Shown one piece after another: positions 16,877 to 30,656 of a stretch of 64,000 nucleotides of DNA (within the stretch, counting starts at the first letter, position 1; the number at the start of each line of letters is the position of its first letter). The notes below the pieces were generated by a model that saw only the letters and a program-made list of their open reading frames with translations, was not told where the DNA came from and did not search any database. This DNA comes from Deltaproteobacteria bacterium. Its GTDB lineage: Bacteria; Myxococcota; Myxococcia; Myxococcales; 40CM-4-68-19. The stretch lies in contig JANYKT010000140.1 in NCBI GenBank assembly GCA_025358085.1, forward strand, positions 62,001 through 126,000, given 5' to 3'. The position numbers and the translations under genes are program-made.

Positions 16877-18901
16877 TTGAAGTCATTCATCTTCGGTATC
16901 GCAGCCGCACTTGCCGTCGCAGGAAGCGCATCCGCAGCGCAGGTCTGGGTCGCTCCGTCGTCCATGAAGGTCCGCCCGGCCATGCAGCCGGCCGCGAACG
17001 CCCCCGTCGTGGCGAACCTTTCCGCAGCCCAGAATGAGTTCGAAGCGTTTCAAGTCGTGGTGAGCGGACAGGCCACCGGGATGTCGATGGCGCTCGAGTC
17101 CATGACCGACGGCGCTGGCCACAGCATCTCGGGCCGCGAGCTGGTGCTCTACCGCGAGGCGATTATCAATGTTCAGTTCCCCAGCGGCGGCGATGGTGCC
17201 GCTGGTGCCTGGCCCGACGCGCTGATCCCTGATGTGGACCCAATCGTGGGCGAGAAGCGCAACGCCTTCCCCTTCGACGTCCCCGCGGGAGAAAACCGCG
17301 TGGTGCTGGTCGACATCCACGCCCCGGCCGGCACGCCCGCGGGCACCTATCATGGCAACGTGGTGGTCACCGGCAGCGTGTCCGCCAACATCCCGGTTAC
17401 GCTGACCGTGTGGGACTTCGCGGTGCCCTCGACCTCGACGTTGAAGAGCGCGTACGGCATGTCGTGGAACGGCCCCTGCATGGGTCACGGCGACGCCAGC
17501 TGCGGCAACTACGCGGCGGAGATGGCGCTTCGCGCTCGTTACGTGCAGGCCGCGCTCGACAACCACATCTCGATCTACGCGCCCTTCTACACCTCGACCG
17601 TGGACGCGAACGGCAACGACACCAACTGGACCGCCTTCGATCAGTACGTCGGCCCGGTGCTCGATGGCACCGCCCCCACCCGCCTGCAGGGCGCGAAGCT
17701 GACGGCGGTGCAGGTCAATGGCCCCACCACCACGCCGGTCGTCGGTGCCTGGGCAAAGCACTTCAAGCAGCACGGCTGGCCGCAGCTCTTCACCTACGTT
17801 TGCGACGAGCCGCCGCTGACCTGCAACTGGTCGGACATCGCGAGCCGCACCGCCGCCTCGCACGCTGCTGACGCCTCGGTCCCGACGCTGGTCACCACCA
17901 CTACCGACGAGGCCAACAAGCAGGGCGCAACAGGCATCGACCTCTTCGTGCCGGTGGTGAACTTCATGGACGGCAAGACCGACCACCAGGGCAGCCAGCG
18001 CGCGAAGTACGGCGCCACCGCGTGGTGGTACCAGTCGTGTATGTCGTTCGGCTGCTCGAGCGTGGGCGGCGGGCGCGACGGCACCGGCGAGACCGGCTGG
18101 CCCTCCTACGCCATCGACACCGACGGCACCCGCAACCGCGCGCAGGAGTGGATGTCCTTCGCGTACAACATGCAGGGGGAACTCTACTACGAGACCACGC
18201 AGGGCTACTTCAACGGCGACCCGTGGTCGAACCAGTGGAACTTCGGCGGCACCGGCGACGGCAACCTTTTCTACCCGGGCACCCCGGCGAAGATTGGCGG
18301 CACCACCGAGATCCCGGTCGAGTCGCTGCGCATGAAGGGCATCCGCGACGGCATGGAAGACTACGAATTCCTCGCACTGGCGACCAGGCTGGGCGCCGGC
18401 GCGCAGGCGCTGAAAATTGCCCAGGGCCTCTTCCCGCACACGTACCTGTCCAGCATCACCGCGGACAGCATCGACGCGGCCCGCGCTGAGCTGGCCGGCC
18501 TCATCCTCCACGCGCTGGGCAAGGACGTCGTCGCCACCGGCGGCGGGTCGGGCGGCACTGGCACCGGCGGCACTGGCACCGGCGGCACTGGCACCGGCGG
18601 CGCTGGCACCGGCGGCACCGGCACCGGCGGCACCGGCACCGGCGGCACCGGCACCGGCGGCACTGGCACCGGCACTGGCACCGGCGGCACTGGCGGAACC
18701 GGCACCGGCACCGGCGGAACTGGGCCCGGCGGCACGGGCGCGACTCCGACCACGCAGCCTCCGGTCATTCCGGTCCTGAAGGCGAACGCCGGCGGCTGCT
18801 CCAGCGGGGGTGCGCAGACGGCGTGGCTCGCTCTCCCCCTCTTTGCGATGGTGGGACTGCGCCGCCGCCGGGCCCTGGGCCTGGTGCGCCGCCGCAAGTA
18901 G
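16877..18901 (+). CDS. Exported DUF4091-domain protein with MYXO-CTERM-like tail
   Basis: A 674-residue protein. It has a signal peptide (MKSFIFGIAAALAVAGSASA) and a large body of GH123/DUF4091 type, ending with the family motif SLRMKGIRDGMEDYEFLALA near residue 480. A low-complexity Gly-Thr linker (about 555-625) follows. The tail is GGCSSGG (about 637), a hydrophobic segment and RRRR. This tripartite tail matches MYXO-CTERM sorting signals, which anchor or process proteins at the myxobacterial outer surface, so the catalytic part is probably displayed outside. DUF4091 proteins are glycoside-hydrolase-like. The TTG start is supported by GGAGG 5 nt upstream. The substrate is unknown, presumably a polysaccharide. 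Confidence 0.82.
   Translation: MKSFIFGIAAALAVAGSASAAQVWVAPSSMKVRPAMQPAANAPVVANLSAAQNEFEAFQVVVSGQATGMSMALESMTDGAGHSISGRELVLYREAIINVQFPSGGDGAAGAWPDALIPDVDPIVGEKRNAFPFDVPAGENRVVLVDIHAPAGTPAGTYHGNVVVTGSVSANIPVTLTVWDFAVPSTSTLKSAYGMSWNGPCMGHGDASCGNYAAEMALRARYVQAALDNHISIYAPFYTSTVDANGNDTNWTAFDQYVGPVLDGTAPTRLQGAKLTAVQVNGPTTTPVVGAWAKHFKQHGWPQLFTYVCDEPPLTCNWSDIASRTAASHAADASVPTLVTTTTDEANKQGATGIDLFVPVVNFMDGKTDHQGSQRAKYGATAWWYQSCMSFGCSSVGGGRDGTGETGWPSYAIDTDGTRNRAQEWMSFAYNMQGELYYETTQGYFNGDPWSNQWNFGGTGDGNLFYPGTPAKIGGTTEIPVESLRMKGIRDGMEDYEFLALATRLGAGAQALKIAQGLFPHTYLSSITADSIDAARAELAGLILHALGKDVVATGGGSGGTGTGGTGTGGTGTGGAGTGGTGTGGTGTGGTGTGGTGTGTGTGGTGGTGTGTGGTGPGGTGATPTTQPPVIPVLKANAGGCSSGGAQTAWLALPLFAMVGLRRRRALGLVRRRK
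18541..18740 (+). repeat. GC-rich minisatellite encoding a Gly/Thr linker
   Basis: Near-perfect repeats of a 15-bp unit based on GGCACTGGCACCGGC encode (GTGTG/GTGGT)n between the catalytic body and the sorting tail of the DUF4091 protein. Third-position C/T changes distinguish the copies. Repeat number is likely to vary between strains. Confidence 0.85.
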
Positions 18902-20390: not shown

Positions 20391-20753
20391 TCAGCCGTAG
20401 CTCTTCTCCTGCTTTTCCTGCTCTTCCTTGCAGCGGATGCACATGGTCGTGACCGGCCGCGCCTCCAGCCGCTTGGCCGAGATCTCCTCCTCGCAGATCT
20501 CGCAGACTCCATAGGTACCGGCGTCGATGCGGCCGATGGCGTTGTCGATCTTCTTGAGCAGGAACTTCTCCCTGTCTCGCAGCCTGAAGACCATGCTCTG
20601 GGTGTACTCGGAGGACGCCAGGTCGATCTCGTCCGGCAGATCGTCTGTGTCGAAGGTTGCCTCTTCCAAAAGCGTCTTGCGAGCGCTCTGGAGCAGCCCC
20701 TTCTTGTCGTCTTCGAGCTTCTTCTTGAAGCGCTTCAGGTCTCTCTGATTCAC
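20391..20753 (-). CDS. TraR/DksA family transcriptional regulator
   Basis: A 120-residue protein with a long N-terminal coiled-coil hairpin (about 1-75). Its tip has the acidic DDLPDEIDLAS sequence. A C-terminal zinc finger follows with CEICEEEI and CIRCKEEQ. DksA-type proteins enter the RNA polymerase secondary channel and, with ppGpp, adjust rRNA and amino-acid promoters. Myxobacteria carry several short DksA homologues of this kind (RNA polymerase-binding transcription factors). It is convergent with moeB and divergent from the diadenylate cyclase gene. Confidence 0.9.
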   Translation of the reverse strand: MNQRDLKRFKKKLEDDKKGLLQSARKTLLEEATFDTDDLPDEIDLASSEYTQSMVFRLRDREKFLLKKIDNAIGRIDAGTYGVCEICEEEISAKRLEARPVTTMCIRCKEEQEKQEKSYG

Positions 20754-20915
20754 GGTGCTGCCCCCGCGGCTCGTGCTGGGAATCGCGCTGCTGCCTATTT
20801 TCAGCCTCCAGTTTTCGAGGCAAAAAAGAGGCGGGAGCTTAGGGAGTCGCTATAGCTGAGTCAAGACCGAAGGCTCCTTTCGGAAGAGACAGCTCCCCGG
20901 CGAAAGCGAAAACCA

Positions 20916-21800
20916 ATGGCCGACAGCAAGCTTGACCGAGAGTTTCTCAAGTCGATTCTCTCGCTCGCGGCGAAGCCGGTGGTGGACCATCTGCTCATGG
21001 TCACGGACGTACCGCTCTCGACCCAGGACCTGCGCGGGCGCCCGCTGAAACGGAAAATCATTTACGCCGTCACCGAGGAGCAGCTCGCGGTGCCGCTGCG
21101 CAAGAATGGCTACGTCTGCGTGACGGTTCCGCCCTACGACTACTCGCGCGTCGAGAAGGTGAAAGTCGCGCTGGTGGCGGCGATGACCGCGAATGTGCTC
21201 CGGGAAGGCGAGGACGTGCTCTGCCTCACGGGTCGCTCGGGCGCGCGGCTTCCGGACACGGTGGTGCACCTTCAGATCGGCCGCGGGTTCGAAGAGAAAG
21301 CGGCCATCGACACGCAGGGCCTCGGAGCCGAATTCTCCTCTCAGGTGGTCGAGGCGCTGGTCTCGCTCGCCATGGCCGTCGGGCACGAGGGGTTCGAGGG
21401 CCATCCCATCGGCACCATCTTCGTGCTGGGTCACTCGACCGAGGTGATGGAGAAGAGCAAGCAGCTGACCATCAATCCCTTCCAGGGCATCAGCGAGGCC
21501 GAGCGCAACGTGCTCGACCCGAAGATCCGCGAGGCGCTGAAAAATTTTGCTGTGCTCGACGGAGCGTTCGTCATCCGGGAGGACGGGGTGGTGCTCGCCG
21601 CCGGACGCTACCTGCAGGCTGCCGACGGCAACAAGGTGGAGCTCCAGCTGGGCCTCGGCGCGCGGCACGCAGCGGCCGCAGCCATCACGGTCGAAACCTC
21701 GGCCATTGCGATCTCGGTCTCGCAGTCAAGCGGCACGGTCCGAATCTTCAAGGGCGGGCAGGCGCTGCTCGAGTTGCAGCAAGTGGCCCGGCGGAGCTGA
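20916..21800 (+). CDS. Diadenylate cyclase, DacZ-like
   Basis: A 294-residue soluble protein. The N-terminal half (about 15-130) resembles the pyruvate-kinase C-terminal-like alpha/beta domain of archaeal DacZ. The C-terminal DAC (DisA_N) domain carries the DGA motif in VLDGAFVI and the second motif as ARHAAAAAIT, where DisA and CdaA have RHR. DAC domains join two ATP into cyclic di-AMP. The third residue of RHR is Ala here; as I recall archaeal DacZ also deviates at that place, so activity is likely but not proven. No membrane helix or DNA-binding HhH domain is fused. It lies 62 bp upstream of hemE on the same strand. Confidence 0.82.
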   Translation: MADSKLDREFLKSILSLAAKPVVDHLLMVTDVPLSTQDLRGRPLKRKIIYAVTEEQLAVPLRKNGYVCVTVPPYDYSRVEKVKVALVAAMTANVLREGEDVLCLTGRSGARLPDTVVHLQIGRGFEEKAAIDTQGLGAEFSSQVVEALVSLAMAVGHEGFEGHPIGTIFVLGHSTEVMEKSKQLTINPFQGISEAERNVLDPKIREALKNFAVLDGAFVIREDGVVLAAGRYLQAADGNKVELQLGLGARHAAAAAITVETSAIAISVSQSSGTVRIFKGGQALLELQQVARRS

Positions 21801-21862
21801 TTGGCAAAGCAGCCACCGGCGAAGATGTCCGGCTGTCAGTTTCATCTGATAGACCCTCCGTC

Positions 21863-22903
21863 ATGTCACAAGCCGATCGGTTCCTGAACGCCTGCCGTGG
21901 CCTCCCCGTCGATCGCACTCCCATCTGGATCATGCGGCAGGCCGGGCGGTATCTGCCCGAGTATCGCGCGGTCCGCGGCAAGGTGCCCTTCCTCACGCTC
22001 TGCAAGACGCCGGACCTCGCGGCGGAGGTGACGCTGCAGCCGGTGAATATCCTCGGCGTCGATGCGGCAATCCTCTTCAGCGACATCCTGCTCGTCTGTG
22101 AAGCCATGGGAATGGAGCTCATCCTTGAAGACCAGGGACCGCAGTTTCCCTCGCCGCTCAAGTCGCGCGCGGACGTAGACCAGCTGCATGTTCCCGACCC
22201 CGAGACCGAGCTTGCGTTCGTGCCGGAGGCGGTGCGGCGCATCCGGCGTGCGCTCGACGGGCGCGTGCCGCTGATCGGTTTCTGCGGCGCGCCCTGGACG
22301 CTGGCTGCGTACATGATCGAAGGAAAGACCTCGCGCAGCTTCGAGAAAGCCAAAGCCATGCTGCTCGCCGATGACGCGCTCGCAGAAGCGCTGCTGGGCA
22401 AGCTCTCGGCCGCGCTGATCCTGTATCTCAATGCGCAGCTCGCGGCGGGCGCGCAGGCCGTGCAGATCTTCGACTCATGGGCCGGTGCTCTCGGCCCCGA
22501 GGACTATGCGCGACTGGGCGCTCCTTACATTGCACGCGTCATTCGAGGACTGAAGCGCGATTCAAACCAGCCCGTCATCGTCTTCGGCGTCGAGACCGGA
22601 GAGCTGCTCAGCCAGCTGGCGGGGACCGGCGCGGGCGTGGTCGGGGTCGACTGGCGCGTGCCGCTGGACCAGGCTCGCGGGCGGGTCGGACCCACCGTCA
22701 CCCTGCAAGGCAACCTCGACCCGACCAGCTTGTTCCTCCCTCGCGCGCGCCTGGAACAACGGGCGCGGCGCGTCTTGGAGCAGGCAGATCTGGCGGGCGG
22801 CGGTCACATCTTCAACCTGGGACACGGCATCCTCCCAGGCACTCCCGTCGAGGCCGCGCAGGCTCTGGTCGAGGTGGTCCACGCTCACTCTCCCGCCCGC
22901 TGA
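21863..22903 (+). CDS. hemE: Uroporphyrinogen decarboxylase
   Basis: A 346-residue cytoplasmic enzyme of heme synthesis that removes four carboxyl groups from uroporphyrinogen III to give coproporphyrinogen III. The N-terminal signature PIWIMRQAGRYLPEYR includes the substrate-binding Arg residues, and the catalytic Asp lies in ILFSDILL. GFCGAPWTLAAYMIEG and NLGHGILPGTP near the C-terminus are also standard. Length is normal. Two genes downstream on the same strand is a protoporphyrinogen oxidase-like gene, so the region is a small heme cluster interrupted by a Gly-rich gene. Confidence 0.97.
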   Translation: MSQADRFLNACRGLPVDRTPIWIMRQAGRYLPEYRAVRGKVPFLTLCKTPDLAAEVTLQPVNILGVDAAILFSDILLVCEAMGMELILEDQGPQFPSPLKSRADVDQLHVPDPETELAFVPEAVRRIRRALDGRVPLIGFCGAPWTLAAYMIEGKTSRSFEKAKAMLLADDALAEALLGKLSAALILYLNAQLAAGAQAVQIFDSWAGALGPEDYARLGAPYIARVIRGLKRDSNQPVIVFGVETGELLSQLAGTGAGVVGVDWRVPLDQARGRVGPTVTLQGNLDPTSLFLPRARLEQRARRVLEQADLAGGGHIFNLGHGILPGTPVEAAQALVEVVHAHSPAR

Positions 22904-22998
22904 GCGGCGCCGGTCGCGGGCTTGCCCGTTCATTGCACCTGCCATGCCGCTGGCGCACGTTCCTCTGTGGGCTCCTGCTGAGCTCCGAAAGGATCGCC

Positions 22999-24015
22999 AT
23001 GGGGAAGAGCGCGCTTGGGACAGGTAGTTTCTTCATCGGAGCAGCGCTCGCGCTTTCCGCCGGGGCGGTGCCAGTCACCGTGGCGCCCGCCGTCCGGACA
23101 GCGCCGTCGCCCGCCGCGACTCCCGCCATGCCGGCCACAGCAGCAGGTAGTAACGGCATGGGCGCACCGGTGCAGCGAGGCAACATCGGCGCTGTCGGTT
23201 CGGGTTCGACAACCGCCGGGGCCAGCGCCGGGACACAGCCCGCAGCGACGACCACCCAGCCGCAGCCGAGCGGCTCGCCCGGAGGGGCGCTCAACGGCGG
23301 CGTGGGCGCTGGCGGCGCACTGAACAACGGGGTCCCCTCGGGCGGCGCAGCGAGCGCTGGCGCGGGCGCGGCGCTCGGCGGCGGCTCCGGCGCCGGTGGG
23401 GCGCTCGATGGCGGCACGGGAGCGGGTGGCGCCCTCGACGGCGGTTCCGGCGGCGGCGGCGCGCTCGATGGCGGCCTCGGCTCCGGCGGCGCGCTCGACG
23501 GCGGCGGCCCCGGAATTCCAATGAACCAGAACGCCTCGAACGGATTGAACCGCAACGGCCTTAACTCCGCGGGAGTGATCACCAACGGGGGCCTCTTGGT
23601 TCCCGGCAGCAGCACGGGCGGAGCCCCGACCGCGAACACCGGCAGCCCGCAGACGACAAATACCAACAGCCCGCAGACCACCAACACGAACTCGCCTCAA
23701 ACAACCAACACCTCCAGCCCTCAGACGAGCGTCACGAGCAGCGCGCAGACCGGTAACGGTTCCGTCAATGCAGGCACTGGCGGCGCCACCAGCGTGAACA
23801 GCGGCGTGGTCGGGCCGGGCTTGGTGTATCCTTCGGGAGCTTCGGTGGGCAACGGCGGCGTTGGATACGTCAGCGGAAATGGCTCCCAGCCCGCGGGCGG
23901 CGCAGGCGACCCGAACGGCGCGGCCGGCCCATCGGTCGGCTCGGGGCCGCAAGTCTCGGCGGGGCCATCGGTCGGCGTCGGGCCGGTCATTGGTGGCAGG
24001 GACGGAGGCCAATAG
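22999..24015 (+). CDS. Exported Gly/Ala/Ser/Thr-rich low-complexity protein
   Basis: A 338-residue protein beginning with a probable signal peptide (MGKSALGTGSFFIGAALALS then AGAVP). The rest is low complexity. There is an Ala/Pro/Thr stretch, then repeats of GGALDGG or GGALNGG (about residues 95-175), then SPQTTNTN and SPQTTNTS repeats (about 215-240), and a Gly/Ser-rich end. It has no Cys and no recognisable domain. The composition suggests an unstructured or extracellular matrix-like protein. It sits between two heme-synthesis genes, with gaps of about 90 bp on each side. The start ATG at 22999 is preceded by GAAAGGA. Function unknown. Confidence 0.6.
   Translation: MGKSALGTGSFFIGAALALSAGAVPVTVAPAVRTAPSPAATPAMPATAAGSNGMGAPVQRGNIGAVGSGSTTAGASAGTQPAATTTQPQPSGSPGGALNGGVGAGGALNNGVPSGGAASAGAGAALGGGSGAGGALDGGTGAGGALDGGSGGGGALDGGLGSGGALDGGGPGIPMNQNASNGLNRNGLNSAGVITNGGLLVPGSSTGGAPTANTGSPQTTNTNSPQTTNTNSPQTTNTSSPQTSVTSSAQTGNGSVNAGTGGATSVNSGVVGPGLVYPSGASVGNGGVGYVSGNGSQPAGGAGDPNGAAGPSVGSGPQVSAGPSVGVGPVIGGRDGGQ
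23287..23513 (+). repeat. Coding repeat for GGALDGG units
   Basis: Imperfect repeats of about 30 bp with core GGCGGCGCGCTCGACGGC encode GGAL(D/N)GG units of the Gly-rich protein. Spacing is in codons and the variation is mostly silent, so this is a protein repeat rather than a non-coding array. Confidence 0.75.
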
Positions 24016-24101
24016 CGCCTGATTCGCGAGGTCAGTGGCAGCAGACCCCGCGTCAAGGCTAGAACCGCGCGCGTGCACTCGCCCCTGCCAATGGCCGCAG
24101 C

Positions 24102-25382
24102 TTGAAGATTGCTGTCCTCGGCGCCGGCGCAGCCGGGCTCGCGGCCGGCCTTTCGCTGCGCGACCGCGGCACCGACGTCACCGTGTTCGACGCTGCCCCG
24201 CGCCCGGGCGGCAAGCTCGCGTCGCTGCGCAAAGACGGCTTTCTCCTTGAGAGCGCGGCCATCGGCCTGCTGGATCGGCATGGAGATCTGGCGCCGCTCT
24301 GCGCCCGGCTCAAGCTCGAACTCCTCGCGGCGCGGCCGGGCGCGCGCTTCGTCCAGCGCGCTGGAGTGGTGCGGAAGTTCGGTCCCGGCGTCTTCACCCT
24401 CCGCGAACTGCTGGGCGCGGCGAGGCTGCCATTTACCCGGCGCGCACCCGGCCCGCAGGAGACGGTCCTTGACTATTTTCAACGCCGCGCGGGCCCCGCG
24501 GGCGCTTTCGTCGCCGACGCTATCCAGACCGGTGTCTACGCCGGCGACCCTGCGCGGCTCGAGATGGCGAGTGCTTTCCCCTCGCTGGGCCAGCGCGCGC
24601 GAAGGCCGCTGAGCTCGTTCGCGGGTGGCCTGCAAGAGCTGGTGGACGCCTTCGCCCGCGAACTCGGCCCGGCGCTGCGGCTCAACGCGCGAGTGCGCGC
24701 GGTGAGTTCAGACCTGCAATCCGGGCGCGCTTCGAGTCTCCCGCAGCCGCGCTCTGCCGGAACGCTCCCTCGCGGTGCCGGCCAGCCCCGCGACGCGTCC
24801 GCAGGGAGCCCGGGCTTCATGCTCTCTCTCGACGACGGCGAGCTGCACGTCGACCGGATCATCTGCGCCCTGCCCGCCCCCGCGGCCGCCGCGCTCTTCC
24901 CCGCGCTTGCTCCGCATCTGGCGCTGTTCGAATCGGCGCCGCTCGCACTGGTGCACTTCGACATTGACGGGCCGGGCCCGCAGTCATTCGGCCTGCTCGC
25001 GCCCGGACAACCCGTTCCCGGACTGCTCTTCCCGTCCGCGCTCTGGCCCGGCCGCGCTCCCGCGGGCCGCGCGCTGGTCACCGCCATCGTCGGCAGCGTG
25101 CGCCATCCCGCCGCGGCAGCGCTGCCCGACGACGCGCTCGCCGCGCTCGCCCGCGGCCACCTCGCGCGCACGCTGCACCTCGAGGTGCAAGCGCCGCTGC
25201 ACATCACGCGCTGGCCCCAGGCCATCCCGCAGCCGCGGCCGGGTCACGCGCAGCGCCTGGCCGCTCTGGAACGAGCGCTCCCTGCTGGCGTGCTGCTGGC
25301 GGGCGCGTGGTACCGCGGGGTGTCGGTTCTCGATTGCCTTCGCCAGGGCCGCCGCGCAGCCGAAGCAATTCATGCCACCTGA
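24102..25382 (+). CDS. hemY: Protoporphyrinogen oxidase, oxygen-dependent HemY-type
   Basis: A 426-residue FAD enzyme. The N-terminal dinucleotide-binding motif is VLGAGAAGLAAGLSLRDRG with the GG doublet RPGGKL further on. The family segment DAIQTGVYAGDPARLEMASAFPSL near residue 145 (cut here to GVYAGDP and LSMRSAFP-like positions) and the C-terminal FAD-contact VLLAGAWYRGVSVLDCL near 395 are typical. It oxidises protoporphyrinogen IX to protoporphyrin IX, the penultimate step to heme. The start is TTG at 24102. HemE upstream supports the role. An Arg/Ser/Pro-rich insertion around residues 205-240 is unusual and looks like a loop expansion. Confidence 0.87.
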   Translation: MKIAVLGAGAAGLAAGLSLRDRGTDVTVFDAAPRPGGKLASLRKDGFLLESAAIGLLDRHGDLAPLCARLKLELLAARPGARFVQRAGVVRKFGPGVFTLRELLGAARLPFTRRAPGPQETVLDYFQRRAGPAGAFVADAIQTGVYAGDPARLEMASAFPSLGQRARRPLSSFAGGLQELVDAFARELGPALRLNARVRAVSSDLQSGRASSLPQPRSAGTLPRGAGQPRDASAGSPGFMLSLDDGELHVDRIICALPAPAAAALFPALAPHLALFESAPLALVHFDIDGPGPQSFGLLAPGQPVPGLLFPSALWPGRAPAGRALVTAIVGSVRHPAAAALPDDALAALARGHLARTLHLEVQAPLHITRWPQAIPQPRPGHAQRLAALERALPAGVLLAGAWYRGVSVLDCLRQGRRAAEAIHAT

Positions 25383-25558
25383 GCATTTCGTGGAACTTGC
25401 GTCCGGCAATTCCCCCGAGCCCGACGCCACCCAAGGACTCTGTGGCACAGGCCGCCGCTTGGCGGTGGCAACGCGCGGCTCGGTGCGAGTGCTGGAGTAG
25501 TCGCGACGGCCCTTGATCGGTAGCGCGCCGCTTGCCGCAATGATAGACCGCCGCGCCA

Positions 25559-27592
25559 ATGCATACAGACGGACCGTCAGAGACGCCCGCCCGGGCATCG
25601 GAGCGGCTCAAGCGCGCGATCCTGGGGGGGCCCAAGAATCTTCAGGACCCGGGCATCTTCCACAGCATCTCGCTGGCGGCGTTCCTCGCCTGGGTGGGCC
25701 TCGGCGCTGACGGGCTCTCGTCGTCCTCCTACGGTCCACAGGAGGCCGCGAAGAATCTCGGCACCCACACCTACCTGGCCGTCTTCCTCGCGCTCGCCAC
25801 CGCCTTCACGGTCTTCATCATCGCGGCCGCTTACAGCCGCGTCATCGAGCACTTCCCTTTCGGCGGCGGCGGCTATGTGGTGGCCAGCCGGCTTCTGGGA
25901 CCCAGGTTCGGTGTGGTCAGCGGCGCGGCGCTGCTGGTGGACTATGTCCTGACCATCGCCACCTCGATCTCGTCCGGCGGCGACGCCATCTTCTCGGTGC
26001 TTCCCAACGGCGAGCATTGGTCGACCTTCACCCTCATCGGCCTGCCCATCAAGCTCCACGTCGAACTCTTTGCCGTCGTGCTCCTGGTGATGCTGAACCT
26101 GCGCGGCGTCAAGGAATCGGTCCGCATCCTGATGCCCATCTTCGTCGTCTTCCTGATCACCCACGCCATCATCATCGTCGCCGGCATCGGCCTCAATCTG
26201 GGCCACACAGCAGCGGTGGTGCACGAGGTCCGCACCGGGCTGTCGAACGACCTGCACTCGATCGGAAAGGGCGCGCTCGCGCTCATCTTCCTCAAGGCGT
26301 ACTCGATGGGCGGCGGCACCTATACCGGCATCGAGGCGGTCTCGAACGGCCTGTCCATCATGCGCGAGCCGCGCGTCGCCACCGGCAAGAAGACCATGGT
26401 CTACATGGCCGTCAGCCTGGCAGTGACCGCAGGTGGCATCATCCTCTGTTACCTTCTGCTCGATATTCATTATCTCGACGACAACCACACCATGAACTCG
26501 CTGCTCGCCGACAAGATCGCCGGCGGCTTCGCGTTCGGGGGCCTGCCGCTCGGCAAGTGGTTCGTCTTCGTCACGCTCGCGTCCGAGGCGCTGCTGCTCT
26601 TCGTCGCCGCGCAGGCTGGATTCATCGACGGCCCGCGCGTGATGGCGAACATGGCGCACGACTCGTGGTTCCCGCACCGGTTCAGCGCGCTCAGCGATCG
26701 GCTCACCATGCAGAACGGCGTGCTGCTGATGGGCGGCGCGAGCTTCGTGGTGCTGCTCTACACAAAGGGCGCGGTCGAGGCGCTCGTGGTCATGTACTCG
26801 ATCAACGTCTTCCTCACCTTCTCGCTCACCGAAGTCGGCATGCTCCGCTACTGGTTCCAGCACGAGACGCACGTCAAGCATCCGGACTGGAAGAGCCACA
26901 TCTGGATCCACATGGTCGGCGGCACGCTCTGCGTCACCATCCTCGTCATCACCGTCTCCGAGAAGTTCAAGGAGGGCGGCTGGCTCACCATCGTCGCGAC
27001 CAGCGTGCTGGTGGGCCTATGCATCCTGATCAAGCGCCACTACACGGGCGTGTCCGCGCGGCTCCAGCGGCTCGACTCCATCATCGAAGCGCTGCCCACC
27101 GGGCCGGCGAAGGAGCTGCCGCTGGACAAGACGGCCGCGACCGCGGTGCTGCTGGTCGGCAGCTACTCGGGCCTCGGCGTGCACTCGCTCTTGACGGTGC
27201 TGAAGCTGTTCCCGCGCCACTTCCACAACGTCGTCTTCATGAGCGTCGGCGTGGTCGACAGCGCGACCTTCCAAGGGGTGGCGGAGGTAGACCGCGTCCG
27301 GCAGCAAGCCGAAGATTCGATGAAGCAATATGTCGCGCTCGCGCAGCGGATGGGCCTGCCCGCCGATTCGCGCGTCTCGATGGGCACATAGGCGGTCAGC
27401 GAGTGCGAGCGGCTCGCGGTCGAAATATCCAAGGACTACCAGCGCGCCATCTTCTTCGCCGGCAAGCTCATCTTCGAGCGCGAGAAATGGTGGGACCGCC
27501 TGCTGCACAACGAGACCGCCTACCAGATCCAGCGGCGCCTGCAGTTCGCCGGGCAGGCGATGGTGATCCTCCCGGTCCGGGTGCTCGAGTAG
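25559..27592 (+). pseudogene. APC-superfamily permease interrupted by an in-frame TAG
   Basis: A 12-helix-type amino acid/polyamine transporter followed by a soluble C-terminal domain. Helix 1 region WVGLGADGLSSSSYGPQEA and IAAAYSRVIEHFPFGGGGY are typical. Codon 611 (27389-27391) is TAG, after MGT. The same frame then continues with AVSECERLAVEISKD and ends LPVRVLE-TAG at 27592, giving 677 residues with the usual end of the family. Thus only the last 67 residues of the cytoplasmic domain are cut off, and the membrane part may still work. Cause: point mutation (for example GAG to TAG) or sequencing error. Confidence 0.82.
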
Positions 27593-27598
27593 CTATTA

Positions 27599-27674
27599 AA
27601 TATGGGGACACCATACGCATTTGGCTCAAGCAGACCGCTTGAACCGGCGTTAATGCGTATGGTGTCCCCATATT
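27599..27674. repeat. Perfect 22-bp inverted repeat with nested hairpin (REP/MITE-like)
   Basis: AATATGGGGACACCATACGC plus AT at 27599-27620 is exactly mirrored at 27653-27674. The 32-nt loop holds a second stem, TCAAGC/GCTTGA. The GGGGACACC/GGTGTCCCC core resembles short repeats mobilised by REP-associated tyrosine transposases (RAYTs). It begins 7 bp after the permease stop and ends 8 bp before the sixA stop, so it also lies where a bidirectional terminator would be. No transposase is in the window. Confidence 0.7.
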
Positions 27675-28359: not shown

Positions 28360-29883
28360 CTAATTCTTCTCCAACAGCTTGAAGCGGATTTCGCCGCCGC
28401 AGATCTCTTCGAGCAGATCGGACTTCTGCTTGGCGGACCAGACTTCCAGGTCCGACCCCGCCTCGGCCACCACATCGATCTGCAGCCCGGTCCCGCGGCG
28501 GGCGACCTTGACCGATCGCACTTGCCGCTTGTGTCCGCGATCGAGCCCGTCGGCCACCCGCAGCAGCGCCGCCAGCCGGCGCACCACGATGCGCTCCTCC
28601 ATGGTGAGCCGCTGGAACTCCGCGTGGCGGTCCTTGGGCGTTCCGCGCCGGTGGTAGCGTGCGATGGTCGCCACCAGCTCGCGCTCGCGGTCGGTGAAGC
28701 CCGGCAAGTCAGCGTGGTAGAGCAGATAATAGCTGTGCTTGTGGTGCCGGTTGTAGCTGACGAAGGCGCCCACGTCGTGCAGCATCGCCGCCGCATTCAA
28801 TAGGGCGCGCTCCTCTTCGCCCAGCCGGTGGATCTCGCGGGTCTGGTCGAACAGGCTCAAGCTCAATTGCGCCACCTGCTCGGCGTGCTGTTCGCGATAG
28901 CCGCAGCGCCGCCCGAAAGCGCGCAGCCCCTCCAGCACCGCCGCCTCCTGGTGCAGCCCCGCCTTGGGCACCCGCACCACGCGGCGCACCAGATCCGCCA
29001 TCAGACCGTCGCGCAAGGATCGCGTGGTGACGGTCAGCTCCTCGATGCGGAGCTTGCGCATCACCCCTTCAAGGATGGCGGTGCCGGCGTAGATGATGTC
29101 CAGCCGCTGCTAGTCCACGCCCAGCTTGCGCCGCTGCTTGGCCGTCGTGCCGCGCAGGTGCTCGAGAACCCGCCGCACCTCTTCGTGCTTGACCGGCGCC
29201 GATCCGCCCGGGGCCTGGTGGTGCAAGCGACGCGACAGCGCCGCCACCGCGCCAGTGGTCCCCGCCGCGCCGGTGATGCGCTTGAACTTGCCCACCAGCA
29301 GCGGATCGATCTGGGCCACCGCGTCCTGCACCGACTCTTCGACCAGCCGGATCTCCTTGCGGCTGATGGGGTCGGTCTTGACGAAGAACTCGGTCAGCCG
29401 CACCGAGCCGAGCTGCAGGCTCATCGACGACTCGGGCTCCTCGCCACGCGCCGCGATGATCTCGGTCGAGCCGCCGCCGATGTCCAGCAGCAGCGCGCGC
29501 TCGGTCGGCGGGCCGCCCTGCAGCACGCCCAGGCAGACCAGCCGCGCCTCTTCCGCGCCGCTGATCACCTCGATATGAATTCCGCAGTGAGCGCGGATGG
29601 TCCGCACCAGCTGCTGGCGGTTCGACGCCTCGCGCACCGCCGCCGTCGCCACTGCGCGCACGCTGGTTGCGCCCGCCCGCTGCGCCAGACCGGCAAATCG
29701 CGCCAGCACCACTGCGGTCCGCGCGATGGCATCGGCCGCCAGCCGCCCGGTGCGAAAGACCTGCTCGCCCAGACGCACCGCCGCGCGATCTTCCGACAGC
29801 ACGACCACCGATCCGTCGGGCGAGGCCTGCGCGATCTGGAGCCGGACCGCGTTGGAGCCGAGGTCGACCACCGCGAGGACCAT
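28360..29883 (-). pseudogene. Ppx/GppA-family phosphatase interrupted by an in-frame TAG
   Basis: The N-terminal half shows the ASKHA-fold motifs VDLGSNAVRL and LLLDIGGGSTEII. Codon 258 (29112-29110) is TAG. The same frame continues with QRLDIIYAGTAILEGVMRKL and then an HD-like C-terminal domain (NAAAMLHDVGAF, LATIARYHR-like VATIARYHRRG) to 28360. Total is 507 codons, the family length. Ppx/GppA enzymes hydrolyse polyphosphate or pppGpp. Truncation removes the C-terminal domain and the end of the ASKHA fold. Start ATG 29883 is chosen because AGGAGA lies 8 nt upstream; a TTG at 29898 is less likely. It may be a sequencing error. Confidence 0.85.
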
Positions 29884-29894
29884 CCCCGCTCTCC

Positions 29895-30656
29895 TCAAAG
29901 TGCGTCCATGCGAAAGTCCGCGATGGATGGAATCGAGGGCAGCACCTCGACCGGCCTCCGCGAGTGGTCGGTGTCGAGGTGGACGATGGCCGCGTCCGGG
30001 AACGCGCGCTTGTACGCATTGACGTGCGTGGGCTCGTTGTCAAAAGCGCTAGCGATGCCGCGCATCGACAGCAGCCGGTCGTGGCAGATCTCCTTCCAGC
30101 GATCGTCGTCATCGGCGAGCACCGGCTTGAGCCAGAGCTGAACCCGTGCGCCATCGGGCAGCGGCAGGCCTGCGCGGCGGAAGCTCTCGACGGTGCCCTC
30201 GCCCATCTCCTGGGGACGGCCGGTGATGTAAAGAATTTCGGCGCCGCGCTCGAGCATCGCCTGGAGGAAGTCGCGCGCGCCCGCGACCGGTAGATCCTCG
30301 CGGCAGTAGGCGCTGGTGAAGAAGCGCTCGCGCCAGAACTCTTGCAGCCGCGGATGGATTTCTTCGGCTTCCGCCTCGGTGAAGCCGCAGAACCGCGCCG
30401 AATCACGCAGGTCCCAGGAGACGATGGCTTCGGGCGGACAGCGAGCGAGTCGCTCGTCGCCGGTCGCCTCGCCAAACTCGCGGACGATGCGCGCCTGCCG
30501 CACGTGATTCATCAAGAGCGTGCTGTCGAGATCGAAGGCTGCGGCCGGGCGCTCGGGCGTCAGCGCCTCGAGCGTCCGATTGAGAATGCGTGCCTGCTGG
30601 CTTGCAATCACGCGGCTGCCGAACGCTGCCTGCCAGGAGGGAATCGCCGGGGCCAT
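29895..30656 (-). CDS. HAD-family phosphatase (phosphoserine/phosphocholine phosphatase-like)
   Basis: A 253-residue HAD-superfamily protein. Motif I is AAFDLDSTLL (about residue 33), motif II is LYITGRPQEMGEG, and motif III/IV lie in GIASAFDNEPTHVN. A cap insert lies between motifs I and II. The DxDST motif groups it with phosphoserine or phosphorylcholine phosphatases; the substrate is open. Start ATG at 30656 is chosen because the sequence upstream in the frame is Arg-rich and not HAD-like. The stop is 12 nt before the ppx ATG, so it is first in a phosphatase operon (HAD, ppx/gppA, sixA). Confidence 0.75.
   Translation of the reverse strand: MAPAIPSWQAAFGSRVIASQQARILNRTLEALTPERPAAAFDLDSTLLMNHVRQARIVREFGEATGDERLARCPPEAIVSWDLRDSARFCGFTEAEAEEIHPRLQEFWRERFFTSAYCREDLPVAGARDFLQAMLERGAEILYITGRPQEMGEGTVESFRRAGLPLPDGARVQLWLKPVLADDDDRWKEICHDRLLSMRGIASAFDNEPTHVNAYKRAFPDAAIVHLDTDHSRRPVEVLPSIPSIADFRMDAL

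Follow-up and report, generated by a model that had tools for sequence, protein, structure and literature searches.

A DacZ-family diadenylate cyclase of archaeal type in a bacterium taken to belong to Myxococcota, and its likely links to potassium uptake

Introduction

Diadenylate cyclase (DAC) domains are described as head-to-head dimers in which the DGA and RHR motifs contact ATP (PMC8573169 and PMC3328451, excerpts). CdaA has membrane helices (PMC6741144, excerpt) and DisA has a helix-hairpin-helix part (PMC3328451, excerpt). The DacZ of Haloferax volcanii is encoded by an essential gene and produces c-di-AMP in vitro when Mn2+ is supplied, laboratory E. coli lacks a DAC, and the legend of Figure A1 in the same work, by Braun et al. 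2019, names Myxococcales relatives, with Myxococcus and Stigmatella sequences (PMC6741144, excerpt). Diadenylate cyclases are described as present in most members of a set of phyla to which Myxococcota belongs (PMC11018627, excerpt), and PMC8844925 and PMC11841059 (excerpts) mention c-di-AMP in their reference lists only. In the open literature, which formed the scope of our search as distinct from subscription journals, no experimental study of c-di-AMP in myxobacteria or Deltaproteobacteria was apparent, and no paper on the riboswitch and kup named Myxococcus in its title or at the start of its abstract.

Here we analysed a DacZ-type gene carried on a stretch of 64,000 nucleotides (hereafter the window), together with its neighbours and its relatives in other genomes of the same phylum, which is taken to be Myxococcota. 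The features are listed in Table 1.

Table 1 Features of the window around the dacZ gene
Feature	Coordinates	Strand	Evidence and remarks
dacZ, DacZ-family diadenylate cyclase, 294 aa	20916..21800	+	ATG start; Pfam, NCBIfam, tree, AlphaFold
N-terminal domain, aa 1–122, Pfam DacZ_P	20916..21281	+	DacZ_P 31.6 bits; pyruvate kinase C-domain fold
DAC catalytic domain, about aa 136–290	21321..21785	+	Pfam DAC 75.3 bits; VIA-align
DGA motif, aa 215–217	21558..21566	+	D in 91/92, G in 92/92, A in 72/92 rows
RHA motif, aa 250–252, position of RHR in other DAC classes	21663..21671	+	R250 in 91/92, H251 in 91/92 rows
dksA-like gene, divergent from dacZ	20391..20753	-	Pfam, NCBIfam; pair recurrent in the order
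Intergenic region common to dksA and dacZ, 162 nt	20754..20915		gaps in 14 other loci 122–410 nt, measured between tblastn ends
hemE, uroporphyrinogen decarboxylase	21863..22903	+	TIGR01464 417.5 bits; start 62 nt past dacZ
KimA-like K+ importer	25559..27391	+	phmmer to B. subtilis KimA 6s3k, E 7e-53

Results

Domains and fold of the DacZ protein

Two Pfam families were matched by the window protein, DacZ_P, described as a probable sensor domain (31.6 bits, aa 9–122, cut-off 27.4), and DAC (75.3 bits, aa 157–282, cut-off 27), the latter far beyond chance with an E value of 3.8e-21. The NCBIfam DacZ model scored the protein at 144.3 bits, and the models of CdaM, CdaA, CdaS and DisA scored it at 21–28 bits (DisA 21.4 bits, cut-off 201; CdaA 24.5 bits, cut-off 188.8). 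The DacZ model is a haloarchaeal one (NF041371, "diadenylate cyclase DacZ") with a cut-off of 430 bits; the protein stays below it and is therefore no equivalog of the haloarchaeal group, only a member of the wider family.

An AlphaFold model was built from 92 rows, with a mean pLDDT of 89.1 and a modest pTM of 0.61, so that how the two domains lie with respect to each other is uncertain. Residues 1–126 of the model aligned with the C-terminal domains of pyruvate kinases (VIA-align Z 11.4–12.6 among the listed rows), with 5ws9 as the top match (Z 12.6), and residues 127–290 aligned with DAC domains (Z 15.8 to 2fb5 and 15.6 to Mycobacterium tuberculosis DisA, 9y4s). Given these matches of fold and family, the layout proposed in the first-pass annotation, a domain like that of the pyruvate kinase C-terminus (PK-C) followed by DAC, is right. 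Judged from the model, the N-terminal domain is a probable ligand sensor.

A DAC fold, an N-terminal domain of PK-C fold, a grouping with archaeal DacZ/CdaZ apart from CdaA, and DGA together with the Arg-His pair were all found in this protein. With regard to the CdaA and DisA types, it reads RHA instead of RHR and lies outside CdaA in the tree. The window gene codes for an enzyme of the archaeal DacZ/CdaZ type, and synthesis of c-di-AMP by it is probable.

Phylogenetic placement and distribution

The tree was calculated from 149 DAC-domain columns and 80 rows, among them no DisA, Planctomycetes or Gemmatimonadota rows. DacZ/CdaZ rows were split from CdaA rows of the same phylum at 100/100, and all 37 rows of the phylum, that of the window included, formed one clade (97/98). 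This clade adjoins 20 non-haloarchaeal archaeal rows with weak support (88/68), and outside both lie haloarchaeal DacZ as well as three further rows from archaea. The proposed likeness to archaeal DacZ rather than CdaA, for which such a placement had been suggested as a check, is thus upheld by the split from the CdaA clade and by the weakly supported position beside the archaeal rows. For DacZ rather than DisA, the NCBIfam scores (144 against 21 bits) point the same way, the tree containing no DisA rows.

Most genomes of the phylum (168/195) had a DAC domain of some kind. Most matches fell into two score classes, which were DacZ-type (E about 1e-16 to 1e-22) where the protein was read and CdaA-type (E < 1e-33); some families of the phylum have both and some have CdaA only. 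The DacZ family was also present in 57 of the 60 euryarchaeal genomes searched. No DacZ relatives were found in phage records, and among 33 pattern matches in IMG/VR none was confirmed.

It had been supposed that the gene might be an additional branch of c-di-AMP signalling. A second DAC branch in the window genome is rejected, as one DAC was found in this draft assembly (217 contigs, 98% complete). A DacZ match was present in 35 of 40 genomes, comprising the window's own and its nearest relatives, and Myxococcales relatives had already been given in PMC6741144 (excerpt). The window dacZ is a genuine DacZ of an already described family.

The RHA motif is the usual state of the family

The first-pass annotation described an RHR motif changed to RHA. 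The reading of RHA is literally correct, but it is not a change, because Arg was absent from the third position in all 92 rows of the family alignment, 49 from the phylum of the window and 43 archaeal. The third residue was A in 34, S in 8, T in 5, and N and V in 1 each of the phylum rows, and M in 21, V in 7, I in 6, L in 4, A in 2, and H, S and T in 1 each of the archaeal rows. RHM was read in 11/11 Haloferax DacZ sequences, a set to which the H. volcanii sequence itself does not belong. A pattern scan covered 80 of 478 relatives, all haloarchaeal, leaving out Planctomycetes and other bacterial DacZ, and gave RHM in 77, RHH in 2 and RHS in 1; the LDG pattern probably caught an upstream stretch in 2 of these 80 rows. 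By pattern, CdaA-class loci of the phylum had RHR in 22 of 27 and another pattern in 5. An RHH counted by pattern in G025 was taken as a stray match, the aligned column having no H in the 49 phylum rows.

In M. tuberculosis DisA, exchange of RHR for AAA abolished ATP binding and activity (PMC3328451, excerpt), and CdaM activity requires DGA and RHR (PMC13022847, excerpt). Since the DisA mutant altered all three residues, since no third-place Arg occurs in the 92 rows, and since the Haloferax sequences read RHM and the H. volcanii enzyme is active, RHA is, as judged from the alignment, normal for DacZ proteins and no lesion, and its use as a sign of lost or altered activity is rejected. RHR is too strict as a signature for recognising active DACs.

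At another position, residue 173 (21432–21434), the window protein alone has His, and Asp is found in 89/92 family rows. The DacZ relative of G048 (L249) reads RNA in place of RHx, with Asn for His, and may be a degenerate member.

The dksA-dacZ pair and other neighbours

The DksA-like protein scored above the cut-offs of both its Pfam domains and just below that of the NCBIfam dksA model (110.5 against 115.5 bits), and both HemE and protoporphyrinogen oxidase exceeded their NCBIfam cut-offs, in agreement with the DksA-like and heme neighbours first annotated. Among 15 other loci from the same order, only that of G012 lacked the divergent dksA-dacZ pair, and the 14 loci with it represent seven families; in five loci outside the order, dksA was never beside dacZ. 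The 162-nt region between the two genes is a possible joint promoter region. The hemE gene adjoined dacZ in only 3 of 20 loci, all of family f1, so it does not belong to a conserved dacZ unit.

Several other observations were made in the window. An ORF at 22477–24015, between hemE and a hemG-like gene, is rich in Gly and Ser and of low complexity, with SPQTTNTN repeats. Ppx/GppA is spread over two ORFs on the minus strand (28360–29898), with the phosphatase part at 29110–29898 and the domain III/HD part at 28360–29064, as a split gene or by a frameshift. The protein at 16877, whose tail had prompted a search for sorting signals, had no family match in NCBIfam.

A KimA-like potassium importer downstream of dacZ

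A KimA-like gene, absent from the first-pass annotation, begins 3.8 kb downstream of dacZ. Compared with Bacillus subtilis KimA, by the list of K+ site and c-di-AMP pocket residues in PMC10284832 (excerpt), its product is homologous over the membrane part and matches at the K+ site residues Asp36, Tyr43, Thr230 and Tyr377. The two proteins differ at the c-di-AMP-binding Arg337, to which a His corresponds in the window protein, and in the C-terminal domain, which is matched only weakly (E 0.94 when searched alone). An LHN sequence aligned with the pocket residues His579-Asn580 was invariant in seven rows of the phylum; the window's copy lies beyond its stop. At this stop, an in-frame TAG at 27389–27391, the six relatives in the alignment carry Asp or Glu, and homology continues beyond it without a change of frame as far as about 27592. 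Either the gene is genuinely truncated or the draft genome contains a mistake here.

Both genes lay on one contig, 1.2–8.6 kb apart, in 8 of the 10 family-f1 genomes having both, that of the window included, and in the other two they were on different contigs of drafts. Outside family f1, no linkage of kimA and dacZ was seen among genomes with both positions listed.

Just past the end of the KimA-like frame is an inverted repeat (27599–27674) whose 23-nt arms match perfectly and are separated by 30 nt. It is a terminator or REP-like element, and no other copy of it within 3 mismatches was found in the window. KimA-like copies were also observed about 4–10 kb from kdpD in five genomes (G002 C70, G004 C568, G008 C486, G009 C31 and G012 C70), and in G002, G004, G008 and G009 the kdpD-linked copy is one of two or more.

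Riboswitches, phosphodiesterase and other parts of a c-di-AMP circuit

With strict filters, a search of 189 genomes from the phylum detected the c-di-AMP riboswitch RF00379 in 12, all from families other than that of the window. All 12 riboswitches were located directly upstream of a K+ importer frame on the same strand, nine before Kup (G036, G079, G122, G125, G131, G135, G136, G141 and G147, with a Pfam scan on the G131 protein) and three before a KimA-like gene (G049, G165 and G192). In ten of these genomes, the nine with Kup and G165, only one DAC match was found and it fell into the DacZ score class, and the DacZ proteins read in three of them (G036, G131 and G165) each had RHA. Of the other two, G192 had a CdaA-class match only and G049 had two DAC matches, a CdaA-type DAC being present in both genomes. 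The pairing suggests that c-di-AMP may limit K+ uptake in these related genomes. A riboswitch for c-di-AMP where the sole DAC is DacZ is the best computational sign that an enzyme with RHA works. As a separate observation, dacZ and pgpH of G165 (L227) lie less than 2 kb apart on one contig, in a genome that also has a riboswitch before kimA.

With the same strict filters, RF00379 was found neither in the window genome nor in any searched genome of its family. No c-di-AMP riboswitch reached the gathering score in the whole window, and none appeared in 20700–25700 at E up to 10, where the only matches were to IRES_Bip (E 0.07 and 3.4). Kup was not found in the window genome, and the only matches in its family came from two genomes (E 6e-4 and 8e-4).

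As to phosphodiesterases and receptors, a search for which had been proposed at the outset, the window genome has the complete architecture of the phosphodiesterase PgpH (7TMR-HDED, 7TM and HD), and neither the riboswitch nor a TrkA_C (RCK_C) domain was found in it. The 7TMR-HDED domain of PgpH occurred in 169 of 189 genomes. Among these 189, 153 had both DAC and the PgpH domain, 9 had DAC only, 16 had PgpH only and 11 had neither, an association with a Fisher p of 4.9e-6 that ignores kinship and genome incompleteness; of the 16 with PgpH only, G007 has a partial DacZ and some are incomplete. Two DHH-DHHA1 proteins of the window genome, which has a third DHH match besides, are possible pApA hydrolases.

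The window genome also contains kdpA, kdpC, a kdpB-like P-type ATPase and a short KdpD of 381 aa beside a separate histidine kinase. In phyla that include Myxococcota, c-di-AMP has been proposed to control short KdpD by way of its Usp domain (PMC11018627, excerpt); in the KdpD of the window genome, no Usp domain was reported by Pfam at E 0.001.

Discussion

We consider it quite likely that the window gene encodes a soluble, working DacZ, the sole c-di-AMP synthase detected here, with removal of the nucleotide by PgpH and control of K+ as its output. Following the mechanism of the family, two DAC domains would face each other in a head-to-head dimer and condense two ATP molecules to c-di-AMP, with the nucleotide bound by DGA and the Arg-His of RHx, and the third residue of RHR would be dispensable in this family. 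The fold of the PK-C-like N-terminal domain suggests that it probably senses a small metabolite and thereby sets the activity. A PgpH-type phosphodiesterase would degrade c-di-AMP, which would restrain K+ importers, possibly directly through the KimA-like protein and the short KdpD; some relatives would use a riboswitch before kup or kimA for this as well. What this work observed are the domains, the match of fold, the phylogeny, the linkage of genes and, in relatives, the pairing of riboswitch and transporter; catalysis, the N-domain ligand and the role of c-di-AMP as a ligand of KimA, KdpD or riboswitches in this phylum are predicted.

A catalytically dead DAC, serving as a nucleotide-binding sensor or scaffold through the missing third residue of RHR and His173, is very unlikely. 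The AAA mutant of DisA, the need of CdaM for DGA and RHR, and the presence of His173 in the window protein alone would be in keeping with it, but the mutant had lost all three residues and the window protein retains R and H. Moreover, third-place Arg is absent throughout the family, including the Haloferax kind, which has an active member, no second DAC was found beside it in a genome that has PgpH, and c-di-AMP riboswitches occur in ten genomes whose one DAC match is of the DacZ class. We also regard it as unlikely, although somewhat less so, that an active DacZ serves mainly the stringent response or stress instead of K+, with the dksA-dacZ pair reflecting shared regulation and the K+ linkage being incidental. 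The recurrence of dksA beside dacZ within the order and not outside it would fit, as would the link between (p)ppGpp and c-di-AMP in Listeria (title of PMC8549634); against this, adjacency of genes does not imply shared function, and a K+ importer follows each of the 12 c-di-AMP riboswitches detected in this phylum.

As for origin, the bacterial DacZ clade might be the result of a recent transfer from archaea, since the family is common in euryarchaea and the clade adjoins archaeal rows. We regard this as quite improbable: in a tree whose bacterial rows come from this phylum, the 37 phylum rows form one well-supported group with deep splits and a long stem, and DAC of some kind is widespread in the phylum.

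A working DacZ that controls K+ may be part of a broader scheme, which we put forward as a possible but doubtful one. In most of the phylum, c-di-AMP would come from one archaeal-type cyclase without the third Arg of RHR, tied to K+ importers by riboswitches before kup or kimA and by KimA beside dacZ, and tied to the stringent response by the dksA-dacZ promoter, with the PK-C-like domain reading a glycolytic or nucleotide metabolite. If true, carbon state, starvation and turgor would be coupled in these bacteria. Myxobacteria are known for starvation-driven development.

Comparison with known systems

Like haloarchaeal DacZ of the Haloferax volcanii type, the window protein is a soluble two-domain protein with a PK-C-like and a DAC domain, DGA, and RHx without the third Arg. 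The two differ in their N-terminal domains, DacZ_P in the window and DACZ_N in Haloferax gibbonsii, and share 26–31% identity. In addition, mscS, the operon partner of haloarchaeal dacZ (PMC6741144, excerpt), is absent from the scanned neighbours in the window. Archaeal CdaZ/DacY, a label used here for the non-haloarchaeal rows, a set that does not contain Methanocaldococcus jannaschii, is the nearest group in the tree (88/68). Its rows read RH[M/I/V/L/A] and are 27–36% identical to the window protein, and the N-terminal domain of one example is DacZ_A in contrast to DacZ_P; Pfam thus already splits the N-terminal domains into DacZ_P, DacZ_A and DACZ_N.

CdaA and DisA share the DAC fold with the window protein, which scores far lower on their profiles, and CdaA of the same phylum forms a separate clade, mostly with RHR. 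The Myxococcales DacZ relatives of Braun et al. 2019, which the excerpts list and do not discuss, are taken from this listing as members of the same clade as the window protein. What this analysis adds is a proposed, testable K+ circuit of DacZ, PgpH, a riboswitch before kup or kimA, and short KdpD, together with a dksA-dacZ pair that extends across the order.
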